From the NCBI GenBank assembly GCA_005880795.1, contig VBGP01000025.1, positions 1 to 40,115 on the forward strand: a DNA stretch of 40,115 bases, read 5' to 3'. Below, one piece after another: positions 21,001-40,115 of this stretch. The DNA comes from Chloroflexota bacterium (lineage in GTDB: Bacteria > Chloroflexota > Dormibacteria > Dormibacterales > Dormibacteraceae). Within the stretch, counting starts at the first letter, position 1. Each line of letters starts with the position of its first letter. The notes under the pieces were generated by a model. It searched no databases, had not been told where the DNA came from, and was given only the letters and a program-made list of their open reading frames with translations. A program made the position numbers and the translations under genes.

Positions 21001-22706
21001 CTCGACGTCCAGGCCTGCGGATCGCCACCGAGGGCGGTGCCCGTAGCCATGCCAACGTTCGAGCCACCGTCAACGCTCCAGCTGACTGTTCCCCTCCCGT
21101 CGCCGGTTCGCGCGTCGAGCCTGAGAATGACGTTGCCGCCAACCGTCGAGCCACCCGGCATCACCTGCAGGACCGTCGGCTCGCTGCTGGGTGCGACCCA
21201 TGATGCTGCTGCCGTACCTAGTGGCGCCGCGGGAGTGGCGGCCGGATCGTCGCCGACCACCAAGTAGGTGTAGGTGACGCCCGCGTTGCCACCGAAGTCG
21301 AGGAAGGATGTGCCCGACGTCGATCCCACGAGTACGGGTTGTTGGCCCGGCTCGGAACGATAAATCCGGTACGCGCCGACGCCGGCGACGGCAGACCAGG
21401 TCAGCTGGACATGTCCGTCCTGTGCGATCGCCTGGACCTGTGTTGACGGTGCGGGAGGAGGCGGTTGTGCGGTCGTGGTTGTCGTTGTCGTCGTGGTGGC
21501 CGTAGTGGTCGTGGTCGAGTCGGTCTGAGTGGCGGTGGTTCCTGTTGCAGTCGTCGTGGTGGTTGCCGTAGTCGTAGTGGAGGTTGCCGTCGAAGCAGGT
21601 TGAGTGGCGGTGCCTTGAGTTGTCGTCGTGGTGGTTGTCGCCGACGCCGCGGGCACAGCTACCGAGACGGGGTCAGTGATGTAGCGAGCGTCTAGAGCTG
21701 GCTGGCCACTCACGCAGCCGCCCGCAGCAAGCCCGCTGCTTGGGCATGCATGCATTGACATAACGCGGTAGTAGCTGGTCGCCCCGGCCGCTGCCGCGTT
21801 GTCAGCGTAGGTAAGGGTCGTCGTCTGACCGATGTAGGAGTAGGTGCCTGCGACGGTGCTGGACCGATAAATGGCGTACGCAGTCGCATTCACGCCGGCC
21901 AACCACGACAGAGTTACACCAGTTCCCGTTGGCTGCGTCTGCAGGGAGTTCGGCGGGCCGTACGTTGGTGTAGGCGCAACTGCGGCCCGCGCAGAAGTTG
22001 TCGCACTCAGGCTTCGTAGCCGGCCGACGAGCTCATTGAGGCCGACCAGCTCGGCCATCTGAAGCCGTGCATCGCCCGTGTCGGGGTCGTAGCTGACCAC
22101 AACCATCTTGAGGCTCTTCGCCCAATCGCCAACTCGAATCGAATCAAGATGCCGCGGAATTCGCGCCGCAAAAATCCCCAGATATGGATCTACGAGCTGC
22201 AGCTGGATACGCGGAATGGCGACCTCGGCGATGCGGCCGCTGCCGTCCACGTTGCGCGCCCACCGGATAAAGCTAAGTTGGTTGTCGCGCAGGTACTGCA
22301 GCATCTGGTCGTGCGTGATGAGCTTCGGAAAGAAAACCTCGGCGGACTTCTCATCCACGACCGTGACCTGGATTCGCGGGAGCGCCAGCACGTAAGTCCC
22401 GAATGCCGGGAAGGCCGTGACGACGTCAGTACCGAGTTGGCTGCTGATCTCGGACGCACGGCCGTCTGAGAACGGACGGCTCATCTGAAGCGTCAGTTGT
22501 CCAGCTCCAGGACCTTCGCGGTACGCGACGATCGAGGCCGACTGCACGTTAGAGGTCGTTGTCGCAGCGGTAGGACCGCTGCTGACCTGCCCAAACGGAT
22601 TGGAATTCGGGAGAAACTGGCTGGCGGACTGGATCGCGATTGCGGCGGCCGCGAAAGCGGCCACGAACGAGACTTTGGACCCAATGACCCAGAGGACGGG
22701 CTTCAC
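1..22706 (-). CDS. Giant multidomain repeat protein (FnIII / RTX / Asp-box propeller), 3' end outside window
   Basis: This is one open frame of about 7,568 codons. The phase set by the GTG at 22706 still reads sensibly at base 3, and I read no stop between. The start is preceded by GGAGGA with a 6-nt gap. Approximate residues: hydrophobic leader 7-27; unrecognised domain 30-235; fibronectin III/Ig-like array 240-1400, broken by a Thr-rich stalk at 357-412; RTX-like block about 1655-1713; helical segment about 1740-1840; tandem NEVQ repeats about 2225-3060; Asp-box propeller-like domain about 3170-4090; further repeats and EF-hand-like loops (DxNxDGxI) near 2156, 4136, 4260, 6125 and 6580; RTX nonapeptides 6715-6842 and again toward the window edge. 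The domains point to an extracellular, calcium-stabilised surface or adhesion protein. No catalytic domain is recognised. The C-terminus, and so the anchoring or secretion signal, is not visible. Certain as a gene; function inferred. Confidence 0.93.
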   Translation of the reverse strand, partial: MKPVLWVIGSKVSFVAAFAAAAIAIQSASQFLPNSNPFGQVSSGPTAATTTSNVQSASIVAYREGPGAGQLTLQMSRPFSDGRASEISSQLGTDVVTAFPAFGTYVLALPRIQVTVVDEKSAEVFFPKLITHDQMLQYLRDNQLSFIRWARNVDGSGRIAEVAIPRIQLQLVDPYLGIFAARIPRHLDSIRVGDWAKSLKMVVVSYDPDTGDARLQMAELVGLNELVGRLRSLSATTSARAAVAPTPTYGPPNSLQTQPTGTGVTLSWLAGVNATAYAIYRSSTVAGTYSYIGQTTTLTYADNAAAAGATSYYRVMSMHACPSSGLAAGGCVSGQPALDARYITDPVSVAVPAASATTTTTTTQGTATQPASTATSTTTTATTTTTATGTTATQTDSTTTTTATTTTTTTTTAQPPPPAPSTQVQAIAQDGHVQLTWSAVAGVGAYRIYRSEPGQQPVLVGSTSGTSFLDFGGNAGVTYTYLVVGDDPAATPAAPLGTAAASWVAPSSEPTVLQVMPGGSTVGGNVILRLDARTGDGRGTVSWSVDGGSNVGMATGTALGGDPQAWTSSVAWDTTTVADGTYTLTATITDGAGHAARLTQTYRVNNAAAPAPTAFTAAGVSGAVALTWQQPSYGGASLYRLFRDQSTEPLVELNADARSYVDTTAGSGLHSYTLVLLARDGQQSNPVTARAAAAGGVVSRVVTIGALLPSGEPIAAGAIVAGRLLLQAAVTPTAGTTFDYSSNGNTWSVVPGHVDCDSGVCRLDWNAGQLAAGHYKLRAATADSVSPTFEVTVGSPPSTIAPAGVVAATAPGGVALHWQPAVTSSRTVYSVWRQGSPEWQLLGRTSDNDFIDTAVVEGATSTYRIDTEDADGSGGAPSQPTSAATQLAQAPAGIIGHTLARPDGLGAHSSRAGVTLTWAASAGATTYVVERGLSAAGPFADVGTAASARYVDRGGTVGGQFFYRVVARAGSASSEPSATVSATYAPAAPVSAPATFVVAAGPPPAFQHDVVLTSGPAAVSAPSLVSVSALLAVSGSSTAIIGSAKIEVQGVTGGWQQLALLPASATASGWSALGRLITSALPAGDYSVRAVGLAPNGSILETTASAPIHVVHSAVAPASVAAQVLGDTVSVSWSAPMSDLPLTFSVYRSETGATGYALAGSGLTSTTFADAYLPGGANVSYVVTATDPVGNESAFSASAHVSTPAVWNLQAPSVSLLPLLGTGSNTIVAASAASSSGIASVLFAYAPIGSGAWLNLPLALPLPSSAGAGPSLIQPPGATWAARWDTNNLTGVFAVKATATSSAGVASAQVLNVTFGDAAPRGPPGITLTATPIAGGVRLTWPSAGVTYQVRRSTVGLTGPFNLIGSTASAAYEDLGLVPGASYSYQLSTPAGAASGVVSAIPPAESESLAMVTAGGGGTATSADGTASVSFAPGSVSSPVSVSVSHSTAGVPLNLQAVSPVFELNAVDASTGARVDTFAAEPTVTVHYDPSALRAPSLYYLDSVNGATAIPAAIDPVAHTLTAALPHFSTYVVALNDPTAPQAGNYTLSYSSLVMSLSGPGCPSDPGCSTTLTADTDAATVTLATAHDLTIGDLTTYNGNLTINGSGVETVEVGRDFDLRVAGSTAAGSLTISSAMPVIALSGIKLIKLTNTGTGDHMLDASGFGGDTWLVAGPANDTLLGGTGANRYKFSEGNGTDTVTGTGTGIDTLDLTQLISAQLTVTADKKTITEVSGANTRTISQTAKIAQRVDVSFSGLTSPVAQLLDQISTFATQLKDNIGELSNVLPLLDAGKVGAGLNALVGFADKVKAVAGDLKASLGALSTLSAALDALQNHFTASAGNPFTLTFDTSYRRSAASGGDLEALIDVTLNETTLANITGIKPNLGQLGQQLGIQIDPGISFGLTATVKGHLDVGVVADSVNSGTPLVFVASDDPLSPAFTLKVSADTPDLGNMSIGVSLLEATFRTGSTIHVGGTLTLSLKDLGTKRITVSDLTSNTLSSLVDVVDAGSSTTPDVNVDLTVDVNAGISVIHSVGQAGVKLATASFKVKVPKLFGGSGGAAQPTIDFKADATPLTSAFSVFDNFSKAGPNEILGMLGQVAQLFSSIAQSSALAGVKIPFTDMTLGDAINYATVFKHQILDPLFKSGDATKPDANGDGKVDLHDLNFNGIQSLLNRLENAVGLPDNTLTATFNDTTNELKFNFTLDPWLGLFTSVKVITGPRAVVTTIVNGGSAKNEVQELAINATGGVFKLSFKGQSTGLLCAGTVGPVCTGGAITAADLAKELAKLSTIGSTGSTPNVSVALDGPTGIYTITFDKAPFAGTNVDEIGVDLGVLGLANLGLYNKDSARETIIVPASSSTYWLAYPDATNKLDLSDQLQPDASTSDTTRATNMQTVLSGLSPIGSGKVTVAAHSSTGGPTTYAVTLTNPTADGLKPDSIVAAGGLDLKFGASLGTLAGIQTSGSVVPLLGLFAHASFGINLNDPKQSVQTTPGSFNAGPRVDVITTQEGGKAVSARTVQHGDGSAVPTLSTVQVLTVRAKSGTYTLKTNSGSAATLNVTDGDPALTSAIEGLGGIGAGKVTVTHTVQPEGTAYWITFDSSLNDVDPLTTDGTNLVARDEVQQVSVWNSNSGTYTLKDGTTVASACTTATHTPGTATIPFDNGDLSQLNCLAGGDAVHSSSTLSADGLSRTFTLTFSGTSVTGKNVDAIVADASSLKGALQNGQLLGDVHFGATLYNSPASAVLVTQDAAASASVSTVGQGGQFTNVEQTTAGVAGVPGVNAVQVVTVRAGGGTFTLSYQGHPTQAIPYNASATDVQRALAAMATVGSTTGTSNFAVDESVTPDGTLYTVTFVNTLAGAPVDLLTISDAGLSARNEVQKITVHGAVSGTFKVHLNYAGQDTSTTINVGAPAQTLPCPAAGATPDVECSLAALANIGAGNVAVLQSGESYLVMFIGGLAGRDIASLTISGPDQSLTAQNELQTLQLLNATEGSFTLSATFGGKTQKTVDIPYGSAASVVKTALGNVLAGLGLAGGANDLNISLSGTTYTIEFIGGGAGGLAGKHIEPLSTDIGKLRNTNPLGSVNVIQPACQTTGWTGSCGTAPSPKPAAFSSPLDLVQQLQDNINVALVNAGLTPGFMSTGSVSVGGSFTAGAVPFGAPDFIPQGNHIHNGETGDLSCMAPPVSTTKECDNPVVGAVSAVVVHPNTSDVVWIGTVNGGVWRADKAWTGGIGLTTWTPLLDLGPSMSISALALDPTVALAGSSFDKAVVVAGIGDISSFGGRGGPLNGIIRSTDGGQTWDQLGLNDLSGLTVSGVAPRGNVIVVAAKGGAGGGIWRSTDTGKTFTHISGDTRLYGLPAGDAFDMVSDPSNVNVLYAALVGGTFQSQDLGATWQQIDGASTTTTAAIASGAMVNAITVAPVPYAIPGGIQVFLANGAALQTFVTAGLTAQGAVSINVTPQGANAAYPANTSQVSWYVFQPYLTGGPVDATHNAGGAVNIKLSVHHPAGGANILYAVVANNLTGCQDPNSCQLATIFRYNVATATWQTLARPGSCEGTVAGATNPAGLCPGAGVFVGLNPGTQAATNLTIAADPNDSTRVYVGGDRQPLTGPDGVERTADDAWPNSTAGSTAYFGRIFRCNATTNQCAAMTGTNAPNPATNGGGAPHADSRAMTFDHDHHLIETDDGGIYELCQAQAQQCFVPVTNGPYWVSLNGGHRSPRLQVTESPICAYDSVANIIVCANQDTGAIEQAFPNDSQWLSLLQGDGALAGVDETGANSVRYVSSQTLANMLRISCDNANVCQPTSTQANPLGCAAYGNSGCGNPLAGTRVKLLDDAGALDPWNGLDIRTVDPSLLGTHAIFNVAFATNAVVGGQLLLGTRNRIFESTDQGDHVRPIMLPGAGGLVTALAYGGMEGGATKGDVVYVGSESGVAVRIAGGGVYGALAASASYTGGAPVAIILDPSNWKTAYVMDGKQVFKTVDAGGLVPCPVAGCQDWTNITGNLLTLGDQTLISMAFVPDPNSSNYALLTGTDVGIFATLSTTLGTWAPFGTTLPHTYAYSLSYSNHHTRDTLVVGTLGRGEWKLDNASQAIFGLSHLWGAAPADQAFEIDIPVAQAPQGTVKLDEPQGQFTVAIDINKDGQIEGSEITAPLDLTSSGKDVEDALKALPAIAANLTNWTIAVAKADTTFTFTVAGPNAVTSGQLHVNLVVSGVVPRTTIAPQKAVSTSSSALLTAANGSQQVFTLPPSSAPFFIGLGYDANADGFVDSNEYAYTSLVPAGALGGALQNALNGLSTISGIVGANAAAVRNGDTFTVTFNGLPNLIAPLLVLNSETRISQGIAKPGGFVAALQANANAALKAAGQTLTITASLVSSDIGSSPGCANALPPTCDANGDVPSDPPATDRGRIKISVQGQTGQSLTLKFVSLIQPEADAARFVLNTPPVEDTFDVSQPAVQVNHRLDINLRWKDSAFQELGLNSSPTAFDFTKDPSNTQNYGANPVNPPQPITTDEVVFTVFINGHEIPVEVASSSVFGRLDQPSPADPTHNLIDALQKAINDAIAKYGEGKVKADDVIACRINPDVPATDTRYCKGLGNTINLISNQATGHSVNSIAVDVPWLIDSTSTYPGNINGAITELGWKPGHSETHSKKAGTFFLENVNLTGRVEVYVPDALATANLSFLKVKVEGNGTLPGGANQSGGDVDTRLINLALNVSLKNPRGTAVSTDPTSTTGTHGHTQTVTVPAGFEFALAYPTADGGRWTDQMKADAAGTDVKAALNTLMVGFTNTTTAPQVTSVTKAVTGPGTDCATQSAGTSCVYTITWNSAITGDIEQLSARTAGDGSDGRLYLGILGAALGNGKFIYRAQDAGPNKGSDDVPATGIISGQLVGGLGFEGSVEPDGHLKQLTDLLGITGDASAYLKVNATSPDWFTKPAFHLCSSDATEPCIHVDFEGPDFSAIANRFKHLDFGTIIQALQLIISFLQSVDGPSGTGIAKVLDTKLPLINRSFSEILDLAKSAADKINEIIQNPAASVQELNNALVKVLQLSPPNVSITSTNPATNLTQTLTIGNVIGGSYQLTFDKQTTTPIAFNCVTSTGGSITSCGAPGNDSTKPAGLGVSTSTTSGTLKPGTYYYEVTAVKSTGETVASTEVSATLTAAGTIQLNWTAVSGSGVTYNVYRGTRHGKERVVFAAATNSFTDDGNQTPTNNAGSPPKSIQSALEALKNIGKGNVTVTGPTCDTANPPNCSYTITFPSTFNNGAVTPIVADTSLLTSHDVLSLDMNTGILYFKLDLPFNAQVSQPFALDLSQLKNLLPPALQPIFSAVNSLVSISATGNLAASASATLQIRLGLDLAGPVLITTVRPGVAEDTSIPGSGTSARQTVLVKAQAGTFTLSLDNHPTTDLAVGIGDSDLIAKLNAAIAGITTTSGTTPTVDVHHTTVNGGLYTLYTIDFQGGLLKQPVDDLSANTSKLIGGSRSFFLQTGANGTQILASASASASNINFSAKLGPFGLFVNGGSAAIGGDIRVGLDDITGDGRLVLVGYDGSGVTSDLGNILNFLAINTPVAVFERQAGDSTKDEVQAVTPLGSGGKFKLQFTDGAAQVTTADIDFNAPAFDPANTNSNTVLAKLRAALTTAGKPTSDVKSVLQFGNTYLITFAGAIGGGLSFVTPSGITGVAGAITFKGTANNAGCVSPPEVACLDLPIFVGTQSSQVPIDFQDGNSGAGGMSISTTNTTSGAIVTATIDVRAKSGFYTLELLDTNGTSQTTANLQWNADPSTGSGNLKGALNTTIAQLFPTAACLPTCATTVTQSGTKYTVTFDSRVAIGKLKFHDGDLDRDNHLRADLNVQMAALLNGDFANAFTYNFDLPGWDHFTFEIPSIFALLSDPASLVDGLDKVLQTIQEAFQGQIFGIKLPFIGDALSSANGVAKDIESFRVNVLQKLSATIRNNNLDLDHLTQFLQKAIFDGLAGLHLLQQVAPDGSLLGAVQTLTDPAKLTAEIMNAVPLRFLDANRNPTSIFTAKAAEFDLILHKSYTWQPDQPIHFDVGIPALGIEGDLQPRFSADFDMHFGFGISVDKGFYFVTSTPTVHTISLSLMATFSTGADCKTTVSPARVNGKLLFLALHLSDGLDLNGDGKVTASCTGSTPKLIVTPQTEELTKLYFSGSLDIVDPGTGTDKDGMLTIPELLSSSPLTVFQAAMQGGAMLRANATVDFSTLGANFANILPSISLKVMIDFPFSWKPGSTLNIGAPQIVLGDLTLDLGSFISSFAKPIFDKINDILKPLDWLIGPKGFLNMRIPLLSDLAGHTITGKDLIVLFDPEDGPKVIAFLNFVDQLYYLSGLIKKAASEGKVGLNFGDVVLFENSAQRCANATATACTPDLKKIAWVDHKIDFTSLLGGGVSDVRQLADFSNVQLPSNVSDMIPTFDGAIGSATSEFTSAVKGKTSIQFKLLDIQTILHLVMGQPADFVIIQLPQFSFNFFYRQEFPIIGPLVGTFAGGIGATITLAFGYDSLGLMEFLKSHNAIQLLDGFFIDALDPATGKLVPQATLHAEIAVGAALDLGLIEAGVEGGIAADIQFFLDDLNKDGKIRLSEIEANLIANHFNPIAVFDISGVLTFFLRAYVTINLLFTSFTETFEFARIKLLDFTITFVRPSILATQSGGVLTLAIGPNAKNRLQGNLSGDIDQTIHVKGSGSGDVKVWSDQFNVPESAAQDFTGVTSVVATGGAGNDTIDFKGLSDSTVSVLVHGGGGNDTIDGPTQSACDSKTAVCAQVFGDAGNDSLTSRSGQIDMLDGGDGNDLLTGSTNAANTSILRGGAGDDTINGGPGGETIDPGPGNDHINGGGGADDYVGLKSASVVVITTTDLTGKGVLDLTGRAENITFTAADDKLLAGWGPQDPTAHTFMNGPNAVVNDYAHMIEVLHLGAIGTVLGGSGADTYNIYQTGTGFTTVLDGQGGRDTYDFHNFGHGSSIAAKVIDTGKKWDTGNKIVVDGSPLDDTIVANTLPCGSTCIPVNGTATAADLTTLTDSSQSWTSGQWVGRVVSSVNIYGAFTSLTITGNTGTVLTGSGGWSNGTPPGTSAYQIEGEKGQVCSPDCSAPQQIVTYVTPAPDDNAVQLQINGNAGNDAITVAGTIPAVPVQIDGGAGNDVINVGGGQLSGIEGISQPGLNAPLGVGPVVVAGGSGINTLIVDDSSDTVARTGFLTAFLETRTTAPKGVEVGVVSGLGSRLYPDAATFAASGAAGDDRIEFEAIQAVNVKLGQGGNVFSIGGDSLLGTGAGKLPAVRQEHVLRFIHTPTAMVSVSGGNGGDTLRVLSTNAVSRQTLNDTNGMLRVSEVVAGVPNTTGEVQHLDITGGATDTSDTFALRFGTDSTGPLKFNLTPADLQTALSNLPSLQGISSAVAVAPGAGGGFDIAFDKSLGHAALLVASMTTQLVSVQATTTNGETQHLSIPNITSNGTDWIGYFTLKYHYQETSALPFSIDAGTLATALQDAFTLVGARSNISATGSAGQFDINFDASLGTVSTIVPEIVPLVLAGGTGADKLRVQSLFEDTFWKGGGGADDAQLNLNALTLAPFNPT
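2182..2562 (-). other. C-terminal-side RTX nonapeptide block of the giant protein
   Basis: Eight GGxGxDxUx-like nonapeptides occur in order: GGAGNDTID, GGGGNDTID, GDAGNDSLT, GGDGNDLLT, GGAGDDTIN, GGPGGETID, PGPGNDHIN, GGGGADDYV. In RTX proteins these bind calcium and fold into a beta roll outside the cell. Further single motifs follow toward the C-terminus (GNAGNDAIT and GGAGNDVIN at about 1390-1260, GGTGADKLR and GGGGADDAQ in the last 170 bases), so the RTX region is dispersed rather than one compact block. Confidence 0.88.
10440..13200 (-). other. Asp-box (BNR) beta-propeller-like domain in the giant protein
   Basis: Residues about 3170-4090 contain Asp-box motifs S/T-x-D-x-G-x-T-W/F: RSTDGGQTW near 12830, RSTDTGKTF near 12700, QSQDLGATW near 12560, and a weaker ESTDQGDH near 11060. 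Between them are recurring hydrophobic 'A-L-x-x-D-P-x-N-x-N-x-x-Y' blades such as VVHPNTSDVVWIG and VSDPSNVNVLYA. This is the sequence signature of sialidase/VPS10/YCF48-like propellers. The sialidase catalytic Arg triad is not evident, so a binding rather than catalytic role is more likely. Confidence 0.7.
13520..16030 (-). repeat. Tandem ~95-residue NEVQ beta repeats in the giant protein
   Basis: Five or six successive units begin N/D-E-V-Q-x-V/L-x-V and continue with G-x-F-x-L-x-F-x-G, an A-x-x-V-x-x-A-L helix, I-G-x-G-N-V, then Y-x-V-x-F and L-A-G-x-x-V. Unit starts are near 16022, 15130, 14865, 14385, 14098 and 13785. The units are diverged at the protein level, so the array is old. More scattered copies occur near 6030, 690 and 420. 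I cannot name the family with certainty. Confidence 0.75.
17569..17745 (-). other. N-proximal RTX/haemolysin-type calcium-binding block
   Basis: A run of degenerate RTX motifs (GFGGDTW, GPANDTLLGG, GGTGANRYKF, EGNGTDTV) ends in GIDTLDLTQ. This resembles the haemolysin-type repeat unit that closes with a hydrophobic D-x-L-D-L strand. In the family these Gly/Asp turns bind calcium in a parallel beta roll. Its place near the first quarter of the protein, far from the C-terminal RTX region, is unusual. Confidence 0.75.
18500..22000 (-). other. Fibronectin type III / Ig-like domain array of the giant protein
   Basis: About seven 80-100-residue modules repeat the FnIII pattern: G-V-x-L-T/S-W on strand B, Y-x-I/V-Y/W-R-S on strand C, then F-x-D and a Y-x-Y/V-x-V strand near the end. 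Clear copies lie near 21985-21680, 21455-21215, 20885-20640, 20330-20060, 20000-19760, 19350-19110 and 18750-18530. Ig-like modules sit between them, for example 21190-20900. Such arrays serve as extended extracellular spacers in bacterial surface proteins and secreted hydrolases. A lone additional FnIII-like module is seen at about 7330-7120. Confidence 0.8.
21471..21638 (-). repeat. Threonine-rich stalk (about 39 Thr in 56 residues)
   Basis: Residues 357-412 are nearly all Thr with scattered Ala, Gln and Ser, and are followed by a short Pro run. All four ACN codons are used, so this is a selected protein-level composition rather than a recent microsatellite expansion. It separates the first FnIII module from the rest of the array. 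Such linkers are flexible and often O-glycosylated in exported bacterial proteins; glycosylation here is inference. Confidence 0.85.
22626..22688 (-). other. N-terminal signal peptide or signal anchor of the giant protein
   Basis: Residues about 7-27 form a hydrophobic Ala/Val/Phe/Ile-rich stretch after a short basic N-terminus (M-K-P near the start, K11), followed by a polar Ser/Asn/Gln region. This is typical of Sec export. No clear lipobox is seen. Whether it is cleaved or stays as an anchor cannot be decided from sequence. Confidence 0.65.
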
Positions 22707-35267: not shown

Positions 35268-36806
35268 TTGGAGGAACAAACACAACAGGCTGACGTCCAG
35301 GACCTGGCGAAGTTCGGATACAAGCAGGAGCTCCGCCGGGCCCTGGGCGTCTATTCGAGCTTTGCGGTCGCTTTTTCCTACATCTCGCCGTCCACCGGCA
35401 TCTTCACCCTGTTCATCCTTGGCATCGCCCTGGCCGGCCCGTTCTTCTTCTGGAGCTGGCCCATCGTCGTCATCGGCCAGCTGATCATCGCGCTCAACTT
35501 CGCAGAGGTCAGCTCGCACTTCCCGGTCGCGGGCTCGGTGTATCAATGGACGAAGTACCTGTCCAACCGGACGTACTCGTGGTTCACGGGCTGGATCTAT
35601 CTGTTCGCGGGCATCCTCACGGTCGCGGCCGTGGTCTGGACGATCCCGCAGGTGCTGATCCCACTGTTGAACAACCTCGGCATCAACATCCCCAACACCC
35701 CTGACGCGGAGCGCAACACGGCGTTTCTGATTCTGTTGAGCACGACGCTCCTAAGCATCTTCGGTGTCCGGCTGGTCGCCCTCGTCAACAACACCGGCGT
35801 CGTGTTCGAGATCCTCGGCATGGTGGTGTTCGCCCTTGTGCTGATCCTCTTCTATCACCGCCAGTCGCTATCGACGTTCACCGATACCAGCTACCTCGGC
35901 TCCGGCTTCGGTACCCAGGCGGGCACGTTCCTGGCAGCGATGTTCATGTCGCTGTTCGTGATCTACGGCTTCGACACGGCGAGCACGCTGGCGGAAGAGA
36001 CAAAGAATCCAAGGCGTGAAGCGCCGCGAGCGGTCGTCGCTGCTGTCATCGGCGCCGCGATCATCGGCACGATCTTCCTGTTCGCCGTGATCATCGCTAT
36101 CCCCGGAGACATGGGCAAGTTCGTCACAGACACTGGGGCTGGCAAATATCCCTTCCCGCTGATCACCATCATCGAGTCCAACTTCCCGGGATGGGCGGCC
36201 AACCTTTATCTGTTCGTCGTCTTTGCGGCCATCTACGTCTGCTGCCTTGCCATCCAGACGTCGACCATCCGCCTCGCTTTCGGCATGTCGCGCGATCGCA
36301 AGCTCCCTCTTTCGCGCGTGCTGAGCACAGTCCACCCGACCCTTCACACGCCGATCGGCGCGTGCATCACGATCGGCGTCCTTGCGGCACTGCCGATGCT
36401 CTACTACGCCGGCGCCGCAACCATCGCGATTGGCGCGACCGGCATGATCTACCTTTCCTACATCCTCGGCAACGTCGCGATCCTGATCGCCCGGCTCAGA
36501 GGCTGGCCGAAGGAAAGCGCACCATTCAAGCTCGGCAGCTGGGGTGTGATCCTCAACATCCTGGGCCTGGTGTGGGGCGTTGCGATGGAGATCAACTTCC
36601 TGTGGCCGCGCAACGCTGCGGTCGGTGGTCAGAACCCTCCGCTGAGCGCTCTTCCCAACGTCACCATCGGGGGACTGCTGGGCAGCATCCCTATCTTCGA
36701 GTTCACCCTCGGCATCATCCTGCTCGTCGGCGTCGTGTACTGGGCGTTCGCCCAGCGCAAGGCGCCCGACACCTCGACCATGGCCCCCGCAGAAGCACGC
36801 GCGTAA
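35268..36806 (+). CDS. APC-superfamily amino-acid permease
   Basis: 512 residues with about twelve membrane helices. The first helix has the unwound family pattern (F-S-Y-I-S-P-S-T-G-I-F), and G-F-D-T-A-S-T-L-A-E-E-T-K-N-P-R-R-E-A-P is the conserved loop motif of APC permeases. The TTG start follows GGGGAGGGA, a strong ribosome binding site. It is closest in pattern to bacterial amino-acid/GABA-type permeases. The next gene acts on methylated glycines, so uptake of an amino acid or methylated amine is plausible but not shown. Confidence 0.92.
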   Translation: MEEQTQQADVQDLAKFGYKQELRRALGVYSSFAVAFSYISPSTGIFTLFILGIALAGPFFFWSWPIVVIGQLIIALNFAEVSSHFPVAGSVYQWTKYLSNRTYSWFTGWIYLFAGILTVAAVVWTIPQVLIPLLNNLGINIPNTPDAERNTAFLILLSTTLLSIFGVRLVALVNNTGVVFEILGMVVFALVLILFYHRQSLSTFTDTSYLGSGFGTQAGTFLAAMFMSLFVIYGFDTASTLAEETKNPRREAPRAVVAAVIGAAIIGTIFLFAVIIAIPGDMGKFVTDTGAGKYPFPLITIIESNFPGWAANLYLFVVFAAIYVCCLAIQTSTIRLAFGMSRDRKLPLSRVLSTVHPTLHTPIGACITIGVLAALPMLYYAGAATIAIGATGMIYLSYILGNVAILIARLRGWPKESAPFKLGSWGVILNILGLVWGVAMEINFLWPRNAAVGGQNPPLSALPNVTIGGLLGSIPIFEFTLGIILLVGVVYWAFAQRKAPDTSTMAPAEARA

Positions 36807-36820
36807 TAGCTTGCGCTCTC

Positions 36821-36857
36821 CCCTCTCCCCGCTCGGGGAGAGGGTCAGGGTGAGGGG
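36821..36857 (+). repeat. Intergenic hairpin repeat, copy 1 (supplies a ribosome binding site)
   Basis: A perfect 10-bp stem CCCTCTCCCC / GGGGAGAGGG with loop GCTC is followed by TCAGGGTGAGGGG. The 17-nt tail AGGGTCAGGGTGAGGGG is identical to copy 2 at 39301-39317. GAGGGG at the end of the tail sits 3 bases before the GTG of the oxidoreductase gene, so the repeat probably acts as its Shine-Dalgarno. The stem may also slow or end transcription from the permease gene. Confidence 0.8.
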
Positions 36858-36860
36858 CGT

Positions 36861-39278
36861 GTGAAGCAGCACGCCCGGGCCGTCGTCATCGGCGGAGGTG
36901 TCGGCGGCGCGGCGATCCTCTACTGGCTTGCGCGCCTCGGCTGGACCGACGTGGTCCTGGTCGAGCGCGCGCGGGTGACCAGCGGTTCGACCTTTCACTC
37001 GGCCGGTCTCGTCGGTCAGCTGCGCGGCTCGCTCAGCCTGACCCAGATGATGATGAACTCGGTCGACCTCTATCGAAACCTGGGCGACGAGGTCGGTCTC
37101 GAAACAGGCTGGCACGAGGTGGGCTCGCTGCGGCTCGCCTCGAGCCAGGAGCGGATGGAGGAGCTGACGCGCCAGGCCGCCTGGGCGAAGACCTTCGGCC
37201 TGCCGCTGGAGCTGATCTCACCCGACGAGGCCCAGCGCATGTTCCCGCCCATGACCACCGAGGCGGTGGTTGGCGCCGGCTACCTCTCGACCGACGGCTA
37301 CATCGACCCGAGCCAGCTGACGCTTGCGCTGGTCGAGGGCGCTCGACGGCGCGGCGCGGAGATCTGCGAAGAGACCCGGGTCACCGGCGTCGAGGTGACC
37401 GATGGGCAGGTGCGCCGCGTGCTCACCGATCGCGGCGAGATCAGCACCGAGCTTGTTGTCAATGCCGCGGGAATGTTCGCCCCCGAGATCGGCCGCATGG
37501 CTGGCGTCAACGTTCCCCTGATCCCCTTCGCGCACGAGTACCTCATCACGCGGCCCTCGGGCCTCCCTCTCGACATGCCCACCATGCGCGACCCTTCGCT
37601 GCTCGTGTACTACCGCCCGGAATCGGGCGGCCTGATCATGGGCGGCTACGAGCGCGAGCCCGCGCCGTGGGGTCTCGACGGGATACCCGCGGACTTCAAC
37701 GGCCGGCTGCTCGAGCCGGATTGGGAACGCTTCGAGCCGTTGATGACCAACGCGGTCGTCCGGACGCCCTCATTAAAGGACGCGGAGGTGGTGCGGCTGG
37801 TCAACGGGCCAGAGGCCTTCACGCCCGACGGCGAATTCATCCTGGGACCAAGCGAGGTGCGCGGCTTCTGGGTCGCGGCGGGTTTTTGCGCCCACGGCCT
37901 CGCCGGCGCGGGCGGCATGGGCCGGCTCGTCGCGGAGTGGATCGTGGACGGGACGCCCGGCCTCGATACGTGGGAGATGGACTCCCGCCGCTTCGGCCGT
38001 CACTACACGAGCCGCGACTACACGCTCGCCCGGACCAAAGAGGTCTACTCGACCTACTACGACGTCAAGTACCCCGGCCACGAGCGCAGCGCCGGCCGGC
38101 CGCTGCGGCTCTCGCCGATCTACTCACGCCTGACGGAGCTCGGCGCCGCGTTCGGCGAGAAGTCGGGATGGGAGCGCGCCAACTGGTTCGAGCCCAACGG
38201 CACCCTCGGCGACACGTCGCTGCGCCCGCACGGGTGGGCCGGCCGCCTCTGGTCACCCGCAATCGGCGTCGAGCATGCGGCTTGTCGAGAGGCCGCCGCG
38301 ATCTTCGATTTCACGTCGTTCGCAAAGATCGAGGTACGGGGCCGCGGCGCGGCGGAGTTTCTCGAGGGTCTGGCCGACAACCGCGTCGCGCGCGCCGTCG
38401 GCGCGCTGACTTACACGCAGATGCTGAACGAACGCGGCGGCATCGAGTGCGACTTCACCATCACCCGGCTCGGTGAGAGGCGCTTCAGGGTGATCACCGG
38501 CACCGCATTCGGCATGCACGACCTGTCATGGATCCGCGACCACGCACCGAGCGATGGCTCTGTCGAGGTCGAAGACGTGACGTCCGCCTACGCGTGCGTC
38601 GGTCTGTGGGGGCCGGCGGCCCGTTCCATCCTCCAGACGCTCACCCCTACCGACATCACCAACGACGCCTTCCCGTTCATGACCGCGCGCGAGCTTGCAA
38701 TCGGACCTGTGCCCTGCTTGGCGCTGCGCGTGACCTATGTCGGCGAGCTCGGTTGGGAGCTCTACTGCCCCGCCGAGTTCGGGTTGCGATTGTGGGACAC
38801 GATCCGCGAAGCGGGTCACGACAAGGGATTGACGCCAGGCGGATACAAGGCAGTCGACTCGCTCCGGCTCGAAAAGGGATACCGCGTGTGGGGCGCCGAC
38901 ATAACTCCGGACGTCGATCCTTACCAGGCCGGTCTCGGTTTCTGCGTCAAGCTGGACAAGGGCGAGTTCACCGGCCGCTCCGCGCTGCTGGCGAAACGCG
39001 ACTCACCTGCATCGACGCGCCTGGCATGCCTGGTGCTGGACGATCCTCGGTCGGTCGTCCTCGGTTCGGAGCCGGTGCGCATCGAAGGCAGCATCGTGGG
39101 TCGAGTGACCAGCGGCGGTTATGGCTACACGGTCCGCCGGTCGATCGCGTACGCATACGTCCCGGCCGGCTGCGCGGCCGGCACGGCGGTCGAGGTGGAC
39201 ATCTTCGGCAAGTGGGTTGGAGGCCGGGTCACGAAAGAGCCTCTCTACGACCCCGCCGGCGCGCGCATCCGAAGCTAG
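36861..39278 (+). CDS. FAD-dependent oxidoreductase-GcvT fusion (dimethylglycine/sarcosine dehydrogenase type)
   Basis: 805 residues, matching the length of dimethylglycine and sarcosine dehydrogenases. Residues about 7-375 are the FAD-binding DAO fold with V-I-G-G-G-V-G-G. His46 in S-G-S-T-F-H-S-A-G-L matches the histidine that binds FAD covalently in that family. An FAO_M-like bridge follows at about 378-432, then GcvT at about 435-700 (G-G-I-E-C-D-F-T; Asp531 is the likely active-site Asp) and the GcvT C-terminal barrel at about 715-800. The family oxidatively removes an N-methyl group and passes formaldehyde to tetrahydrofolate. The exact substrate among dimethylglycine, sarcosine or betaine-derived compounds is unresolved. 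The GTG start follows a repeat-derived GAGGGG. Confidence 0.93.
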   Translation: MKQHARAVVIGGGVGGAAILYWLARLGWTDVVLVERARVTSGSTFHSAGLVGQLRGSLSLTQMMMNSVDLYRNLGDEVGLETGWHEVGSLRLASSQERMEELTRQAAWAKTFGLPLELISPDEAQRMFPPMTTEAVVGAGYLSTDGYIDPSQLTLALVEGARRRGAEICEETRVTGVEVTDGQVRRVLTDRGEISTELVVNAAGMFAPEIGRMAGVNVPLIPFAHEYLITRPSGLPLDMPTMRDPSLLVYYRPESGGLIMGGYEREPAPWGLDGIPADFNGRLLEPDWERFEPLMTNAVVRTPSLKDAEVVRLVNGPEAFTPDGEFILGPSEVRGFWVAAGFCAHGLAGAGGMGRLVAEWIVDGTPGLDTWEMDSRRFGRHYTSRDYTLARTKEVYSTYYDVKYPGHERSAGRPLRLSPIYSRLTELGAAFGEKSGWERANWFEPNGTLGDTSLRPHGWAGRLWSPAIGVEHAACREAAAIFDFTSFAKIEVRGRGAAEFLEGLADNRVARAVGALTYTQMLNERGGIECDFTITRLGERRFRVITGTAFGMHDLSWIRDHAPSDGSVEVEDVTSAYACVGLWGPAARSILQTLTPTDITNDAFPFMTARELAIGPVPCLALRVTYVGELGWELYCPAEFGLRLWDTIREAGHDKGLTPGGYKAVDSLRLEKGYRVWGADITPDVDPYQAGLGFCVKLDKGEFTGRSALLAKRDSPASTRLACLVLDDPRSVVLGSEPVRIEGSIVGRVTSGGYGYTVRRSIAYAYVPAGCAAGTAVEVDIFGKWVGGRVTKEPLYDPAGARIRS

Positions 39279-39281
39279 CTT

Positions 39282-39317
39282 CCCTGCGGGCTTGTCCCGC
39301 AGGGTCAGGGTGAGGGG
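39282..39317 (+). repeat. Intergenic hairpin repeat, copy 2 (overlaps the phosphotransferase stop)
   Basis: A 9-bp stem CCCTGCGGG / CCCGCAGGG with loop CTTGT is followed by TCAGGGTGAGGGG, sharing the 17-nt tail of copy 1 exactly 2,460 bp away in the same orientation. On the minus strand the tail provides the TGA (39305-39307) and final Ser/Pro codons of the phosphotransferase gene. Stem sequences differ but are compensated, as in REP-like repeat families. Confidence 0.8.
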
Positions 39318-40115
39318 GACTCGGAGAAGTTCAAGTAGCCAATGAACTCCGGAGTCGACGCGGTGGCCTCCAGACGGGCGAAGTGCTTGGCCGCGTATTC
39401 CAGGAAGGCGAAGTCCAGCTCCGAGATGCCGCTCTGCAGCACGCCCCACATCGCCTCGCGGAAATCGGACATGAACCGCATCAACCGCAGCGCCGCGAGA
39501 TCTGGTTCACGCGCCTCGCCGAAGTACGCGGCGAGCAGCCTCCGGTCGTCATCGACGTCGAATTCATGGTTCACGGAGAAGTTGGCCAGGTCGAAGAACC
39601 GGTCCCCCATCCCCGAGTACTCCCAGTCCACGATCCTGATCTCGCCGTCGTCGATGAAGTTGGCATTCAGCAGGTCGTTGTGGCATGGAACCGGCATTTG
39701 CGGGCCGCGCGCACGTCGAATCCGCTCCGACACCTCGTGCGCTTCTTCGAACTCGGATGGAATCGCGACGCCGTGCTCGGCGGCCTTGTCCCGGTAGTCC
39801 TCGACCACGGCGTGCGCGTCGAAGCGGCCGGGTATGGCGGGCGAGTCGTGAAACCGGCGCAGAGCCGTGGCGATCCGCGCCAGCGTGCCGGGCGTGCGCA
39901 TCTCCTCGGGCGAGATGGGCCTTCCGTCGATGAAGCGGGCGACCAACCACCCTTCGGAGCGCACAAACTCGACGACCTCTGGACCGACGCCGACTTCGTA
40001 GGCGCGACTCCCGGCCGCGTATTCCGCGGCCCGGTCGATGCCGAGCAGCTCTGTCCTCGCGCCGCCCATGCGAAGCACGAAAACGCCGCCCTCCACCTCG
40101 ACTTTGAAGTTCTTG
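39305..40115 (-). CDS. Choline-kinase-like (APH/LicA) phosphotransferase, 5' end outside window
   Basis: About 269 codons are visible. The frame is open to the right edge with K-N-F-K-V-E-V-E-G-G, which matches the glycine-rich nucleotide loop that follows 'T-N' in choline kinase/LicA-type proteins, so the true start lies outside. The Brenner motif C-H-N-D-L-L-N-A-N carries the catalytic Asp and metal Asn, and I-V-D-W-E-Y-S-G provides the second metal Asp. The family transfers phosphate from ATP to choline, ethanolamine or thiamine-like alcohols. The protein ends in Ser-Pro residues encoded by repeat copy 2. It converges with the methylglycine oxidoreductase gene, which is consistent with choline-related metabolism. 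Confidence 0.87.
   Translation of the reverse strand, partial: KNFKVEVEGGVFVLRMGGARTELLGIDRAAEYAAGSRAYEVGVGPEVVEFVRSEGWLVARFIDGRPISPEEMRTPGTLARIATALRRFHDSPAIPGRFDAHAVVEDYRDKAAEHGVAIPSEFEEAHEVSERIRRARGPQMPVPCHNDLLNANFIDDGEIRIVDWEYSGMGDRFFDLANFSVNHEFDVDDDRRLLAAYFGEAREPDLAALRLMRFMSDFREAMWGVLQSGISELDFAFLEYAAKHFARLEATASTPEFIGYLNFSESPSP

Follow-up and report, generated by a model that had tools for sequence, protein, structure and literature searches.

A triplex motif (TM/PIT) has been described in more than 260 bacterial genomes (Holder et al. 2015, PMC4666352). Its representative in Escherichia coli, TM_ECO (e.g. CCCTCTCCCTGTGGGAGAGGGCCGGGGTGAGGGC), consists of a hairpin, one arm of which is pyrimidine and the other purine, and of an adjoining purine stretch that mirrors the purine arm. 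The TM_ECO copies are located 10-310 nt from ORFs at no particular distance and offered no indication of any general function in expression (PMC4666352). Among the REP elements, copies that supply stop codons have already been published (PMC3733652).

Here we compare with these systems two repeats from a 40,115-nt stretch of DNA of a Chloroflexota bacterium of the Dormibacteria, referred to as the window. The genome to which it belongs (G000) comprises 3.22 Mb and is 95.5% complete, and the nearest orthologues of the genes at the locus were found in soil genomes labelled 'Chloroflexi' or Ca. Dormibacterota. Our comparisons make it probable that repeats of the TM/PIT class were inserted at gene ends and that their purine-rich mirror tail doubles as a predicted Shine-Dalgarno (SD) sequence.

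Results and discussion

The oxidoreductase gene of the window (36861-39278, plus strand) encodes a dimethylglycine/sarcosine dehydrogenase-like protein of 805 aa with the Pfam domains DAO, FAO_M, and GCV_T, and is read from a GTG start codon at 36861 to a TAG stop. It is preceded by an amino acid permease gene (35268-36806, plus strand; Pfam AA_permease_2, 1.5e-40) and faced by a phosphotransferase gene (39305-40096, minus strand; Pfam Choline_kinase/APH), the 5'-end of which lies close to the contig edge. Two repeat copies bracket the oxidoreductase gene exactly. The TAA stop of the permease gene is located 13 nt 5' of copy 1 (36821-36859, plus strand), which ends right 5' of the GTG, and copy 2 (39282-39319, plus strand) begins 3 nt past the TAG. 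Folding predictions gave a hairpin for both. The stem of copy 1 is formed by CCCTCTCCCC (36821-36830) and GGGGAGAGGG (36835-36844), that of copy 2 by CCCTGCGGG (39282-39290) and CCCGCAGGG (39296-39304), and each hairpin is followed by TCA and a 10-nt tail (36848-36857 and 39308-39317, respectively). The differing, self-complementary stems run into an identical 17-nt sequence, AGGGTCAGGGTGAGGGG, at 36841-36857 and 39301-39317, in both cases on the plus strand and spaced by 2,460 bp. An earlier note on this DNA had described this arrangement, and all of its coordinates proved correct.

No further match to AGGGTCAGGGTGAGGGG was found in the window, even when 3 mismatches were allowed (mean in shuffled sequences 0.14). 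Within G000 the exact 17-nt tail occurs in 5 copies, and about 50 tail-bearing copies were recognized by a covariance model in the G000 loci fetched. Hence, the tail is not unique to the two sites, as it should have been according to one of two objections that the note had raised against its own reading. The model was trained on the class bearing the CCCTCTCCCC stem; when applied to G000, it yielded 109 matches (E<=0.1), both strands of each hairpin being counted. Matches were present in 33 of the 41 genomes of the bacterial class, and the repeat was also found in 206 plasmid records, chiefly from Azospirillum, Sinorhizobium, and Rhizobium, as well as in 104 viral-contig stretches. Together with the more than 260 genomes reported previously (PMC4666352), this agrees with the assumption that repeats of this kind are widespread in bacteria. 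Imperfect tandem repeats of the GTCGTGGT type occur at 21451-21654 of the window, and its region from 1 to 21 kb is rich in direct repeats.

A literature search with GGGTGAGGG pointed to the study of Holder et al. 2015 (PMC4666352). Both repeats are REP-like palindromes of the class of G/C-rich intrastrand triplex motifs (TM/PIT), already known from that study. Copy 1, CCCTCTCCCC-GCTC-GGGGAGAGGG-TCA-GGGTGAGGGG, shows the full TM/PIT layout (purine-motif class II), consisting of a C-arm, a loop (36831-36834), a purine arm, the TCA spacer, and the tail GGGTGAGGGG, which mirrors the purine arm and is followed by CG. Its sequence, the mirror relation, and a match to the covariance model R1 (55.5 bits, E 1.4e-15) identify it as a complete member of what is termed class A in this study. 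The same layout was found in class A generally and in three further families with mirror tails. Judging from its sequence, a single strand of class A can form a hairpin that accommodates the tail as third strand in its groove. Rfam contained no curated family matching 36700-39420 up to E=1, and the peptide string PLTLTLSP, which had been associated with such repeats, had no match in the open-access literature searched.

As the earlier note had pointed out, the tail of copy 1 offers a GAGGGG (36852-36857, plus strand) ahead of the oxidoreductase GTG at 36861. This candidate SD sequence is predicted to form a duplex of -10.2 kcal/mol with the anti-SD at the 16S 3'-end, which reads GGATCACCTCCT in three genomes of the class. 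Repeat-free orthologues (L038, L040, L048, L106, and L108) share the start residue of the gene, with a TTG located 6-9 nt past the permease stop, and their SD is weaker or absent. Thus, the second objection, an alternative start of the oxidoreductase in relatives, was not borne out either. Predicted anti-SD pairing in the oxidoreductase (DAO) orthologues amounted to -5.0 to -13.2 kcal/mol in those bearing a repeat versus -0.1 to -6.7 kcal/mol in those without (p=0.001, an optimistic value given that the orthologues are phylogenetically related). This comparison, in which the window stands at about -10 kcal/mol, and the cases of adk, gatB, tsaD, and thiE described below support the view that copy 1 provides a ribosome binding site and that the repeat tail serves as SD of the oxidoreductase. 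In the predicted fold of the window mRNA, part of the tail GGGG pairs with the beginning of the coding region, which may weaken this SD.

Class A sits exactly in the permease-oxidoreductase gap in the window and in L036, the latter lacking copy 2. It is also located upstream of the oxidoreductase in L043 and L084, and members of the GGGGAGG family were found in the gap in L037, L039, and L041. Copy 1 is missing from this junction in the five repeat-free loci named above. The DAO tree groups L106, without the repeat, with L036 (95/77), and permease identity pairs the window with L036; the window and L036 likely share one insertion. A target duplication was looked for at copy 1 of the window and could not be shown, and a possible one was seen at DAO in L037/L041. 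Six further loci (L044, L045, L046, L081, L090, and L097) have a different hairpin (such as GGGGGCTGGAT...CCGGCCCCC), which is terminator-like, in the permease-oxidoreductase gap.

In several genes of the Dormibacterota the repeat appears to provide the start codon as well. Its own 3'-end, GGGAGAGGGGCGTG, gives the predicted SD and the GTG start of adk, gatB, tsaD, and thiE. The repeat-derived GTG was the called start of adk (L328), gatB (L335/L496 and L500), and tsaD (L348/L471). The same was true in G000 itself for tsaD (L476 = C76:14968) and thiE (C76:11894). The next in-frame start is found at codon 18 of adk (L328), codon 36 of tsaD (L348), codon 5 of gatB (L335), and codon 9 of thiE. The Pfam domain begins at residue 5 in adk and gatB and at residue 8 in thiE; the TsaD Pfam model begins at residue 27, but the N-terminus is included when the protein is aligned with relatives. 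One further gene call with a repeat-derived GTG (L442) looks spurious and was discarded. In a region of G000 (L209, C76:4001-24000), five class-A/B repeats are clustered over 14 kb, and two of them directly give the thiE and tsaD starts.

The gene upstream of adk is presumably secY and that upstream of gatB presumably gatA, judged by their sequences and by the order customary for these genes. The secY and adk genes of repeat-free relatives overlap (RTGA), and in repeat-bearing relatives the secY stop lies left and the adk start right of the repeat. Identical four bases flank the adk repeat on both sides in L449 and L456. In L452, about 21 nt, corresponding to approximately the first seven adk codons, are duplicated left of a GGGGAAG-family repeat, which suggests a long target duplication. 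SD energies at adk ranged from -8.0 to -11.5 kcal/mol in 10 out of 10 repeat-bearing cases, which include several tail types, versus -1.7 to -5.9 kcal/mol in 5 repeat-free cases (p=0.001, again optimistic as the rows are related).

These observations point to the following course of events. A triplex constraint would keep the class-A tail purine-rich, and a tail reading GAGGGG or GGAGGGG inherently resembles a Shine-Dalgarno sequence. Insertions are located mainly just past stop codons, and where the tail lies right before a downstream start it is the predicted SD of that gene, as the sequence comparisons show. In several cases the 3'-end CGTG gives the called start codon as well. A junction once read by tight stop/start coupling would thereby acquire its own initiation site and presumably be decoupled. 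In the window, a class-A copy would have entered between the permease stop and the oxidoreductase start, and a truncated class-B copy past the oxidoreductase overlaps the end of the opposing gene and gives its last codons and TGA. Most of such recruitment is probably a side effect of insertion that is tolerated, rather than what the repeats exist for.

A more far-reaching explanation would be recruitment of the repeats by positive selection, as portable modules for initiating translation at operon junctions. In an automatic test, a repeat-like hairpin was found at 13 out of 15 tsaD, 8 out of 14 adk, 6 out of 14 gatB, and 5 out of 12 thiE junctions. The four genes had been picked for a class-A copy present at this place in one species, and the counts mix shared descent with turnover of families in place. 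In comparison, repeats were present at 3 out of 159 co-directional junctions of a G000 sample not picked for repeats, in which perfect stems of this one genome were considered. The filling of the same junctions by several families across species would be in line with selection, tsaD and adk standing out from the background. However, shared descent and in-place turnover of families may underlie this pattern, the background covers perfect stems of one genome, and tolerance of insertions at these junctions could yield hotspots without any benefit. We regard positive selection as conceivable but rather unlikely. Only tentatively, and as a proposal that falls a little short of an even chance, we suggest for the Dormibacterota that several triplex-type repeat families are portable initiation modules that repeatedly entered coupled essential-gene junctions (secY-adk, gatA-gatB, tsaD), partly with target duplication, replaced termination-reinitiation by their own SD and sometimes start, and spread without a resident RAYT. 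In the open-access literature searched, no description was found of repeats that serve as SD or start signals for essential genes at operon junctions.

From 172 clean class-A copies, 112 independent insertions were retained by flank similarity. Gene starts were called by an in-house program from coding score and start-codon type, leaving out the SD to avoid circularity. A tabulation of distances to start and stop codons, as suggested in the earlier note, revealed that insertions are located mainly just past stops and that starts are more often close to the tail than to the arm. Within co-directional gaps, the upstream stop lay at a median distance of 12 nt and the downstream start at 44 nt (p=0.001). 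On the tail side, a start was found within 30 nt in 24 out of 40 cases versus 5 out of 27 on the arm side (p=0.001, for one of five thresholds), and the same comparison at the 9-nt threshold gave p=0.06. An orientation bias of 18 versus 7 in the first 52 own-genome matches fell to 31 versus 18 in co-directional gaps among the 112 insertions (p=0.09), and no such bias is therefore claimed. The class-A 3'-end is CGTG in 90 of the 172 copies, and there is no conserved 5' tag. In three genomes (G007, G009, and G019) many copies were found near contig ends. These assemblies probably break at repeats, and the copy numbers may be underestimates.

The strong preference for sites just past stops, often between convergent genes, could also result from hairpins that are kept as transcription terminators or stabilizers of mRNA 3'-ends, with the translation signals being coincidental. 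However, many copies are located between co-directional genes directly 5' of the next start, and the hairpin is followed by GGGTCAGGGTGAGGGG, a G-rich tail without the T-run of an intrinsic terminator. Since a mirrored tail is not needed by terminators either, we consider this explanation unlikely.

Seven other copies in G000 share the core of copy 2 and are longer (class B). They open like class A with CCCTCTCCCC, a loop, and GGGGAG, continue with about 45 nt that include palindromes of their own (CRATCANNNGGCGCGGGTAGCGCGTCCYTAACGGGCTTGTCCCGC), and close with AGGG-TNA-GGG-NGAGGGG. Class B is, according to this alignment, class A with a second palindrome interrupting the purine arm. From its hairpin fold and the alignment to these seven full copies of the same genome, copy 2 reads as a 3' remnant of class B that kept the last hairpin and the tail alone. 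The two copies would thus differ in their stems and share an identical tail because copy 2 derives from class B and copy 1 from class A. The copy 2 stem, CCCTGCGGG/CCCGCAGGG, contains no purine arm, and without a matching one a triplex is therefore not possible there. Both the nature of the tail as a mirror (third) strand and that of copy 2 as a truncated derivative had been missed in the first reading. Class-A and class-B copies lie almost end to end at L184:7406-7531.

The TCA spacer of copy 2 corresponds to the TGA stop codon of the phosphotransferase gene (39305-39307, minus strand). The conserved part of this protein ends near EF..YL, and beyond it orthologues vary. The C-terminus in the window, ...SPSP-TGA, is unlike those of the orthologues and is read from copy 2, in keeping with the claim that this repeat supplies the final codons and the stop. 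Further candidates were found in related genomes, and the L108 orthologue takes its last residues, GPSAGFAGTSP*, and its TAG stop from a different repeat, a member of the GGGGAGG family. Gene calling around the 112 independent insertions placed the stop inside the repeat in 11 of 106 repeat-facing gene ends. These sequence comparisons support a repeat origin of the phosphotransferase stop codon.

A mirror scan of 1.49 Mb of Dormibacterota DNA assigned nearly all purine-arm hairpins to five stem families. In four of these the tail mirrors the stem of its own family, an A of the stem being faced by either A or T. The pairs are GGGGAGAGGG and GGG[AT]GAGGGG, GGGGAGG and GG[AT]GGGG, GGGGAAG and GATGGGG, and GGGGAGGG and GGGTGGGG. 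Matches to the tail of the own family made up 40-46% of the scanned hairpins, the maximum being 50% because every hairpin was scanned from both sides. Tails of other families matched 0-12%, except for the small GGGGAGGG family, which also holds the shorter GG[AT]GGGG (40%) besides the longer mirror (20% of copies). The fifth stem, GGGGGGAGGG, retains the class-A tail. Therefore, the mirror rule is not absolute, which argues against strict triplex covariation. The stem-tail match in four families agrees with a triplex constraint, which we infer from this pattern. It was not found in the open-access literature searched and would add evolutionary evidence for the triplex to the biophysics and footprinting available for the E. 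coli motif.

Conservation of tail and purine arm as a G-quadruplex (GGGG-N3-GGG-N3-GGG-N3-GGGG), and not of the tail as a triplex third strand, would account for the fact that class A fits the four-run pattern and that the G-runs are its least variable positions. However, the tails of other families track the A positions of their own stems, e.g. GGGGAAG with GATGGGG, which is not required by a quadruplex, and RNA folding that takes quadruplexes into account retained the hairpin. The quadruplex is thus an improbable reading and ranks below the triplex.

If the triplex reading of the sequences is right, a constraint on DNA structure, the mirrored purine strand, pre-adapts the repeat as a ribosome-binding site, and insertion can therefore rewire translation in essential-gene operons without breaking them. 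Paired species that differ in the presence of repeats at adk, gatB, and tsaD provide a natural experiment on operons losing translational coupling. The question arises what moves the repeats, if there is no RAYT. It is very unlikely that they are classical REP elements mobilized by a RAYT (Y1/HUH) transposase. Like REPs (PMC3733652), they are small multicopy palindromes near gene 3'-ends that sometimes give stop codons. However, the repeat copies have no GTAG or CGTC terminal tetranucleotide, and no Y1_Tnp (RAYT-type) match over the family cut-off was detected in the 41 genomes, of which 22 are at least 90% complete. The target sequence is duplicated at some insertions, and IS200-like transposition should not leave such a duplication.

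Comparison with known repeats

Copy 1 and TM_ECO (PMC4666352) have in common a pyrimidine arm, a short loop, a purine arm, a 3-nt spacer, and a mirrored third strand, and TM_ECO is like the repeats described here near-identical in sequence, multicopy, and intergenic. In contrast to TM_ECO, the copies in our study abut stops and starts, where they are predicted to give an SD, start, or stop, and they comprise several arm/tail families as well as the nested class B. REP elements (PMC3733652) are likewise short multicopy palindromes near gene 3'-ends and sometimes a source of stop codons. The repeats of this study differ from them in the absence of a GTAG/CGTC tag and of a detectable RAYT in the clade, in the mirrored tail, and in the predicted supply of SD and start. 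ERIC/RU, RPE, and NEMIS (PMC2229807) resemble our repeats as insertions that add coding sequence or affect neighbouring genes. They are unrelated in sequence, whereas the repeats found here would contribute a signal for initiation or termination of translation.
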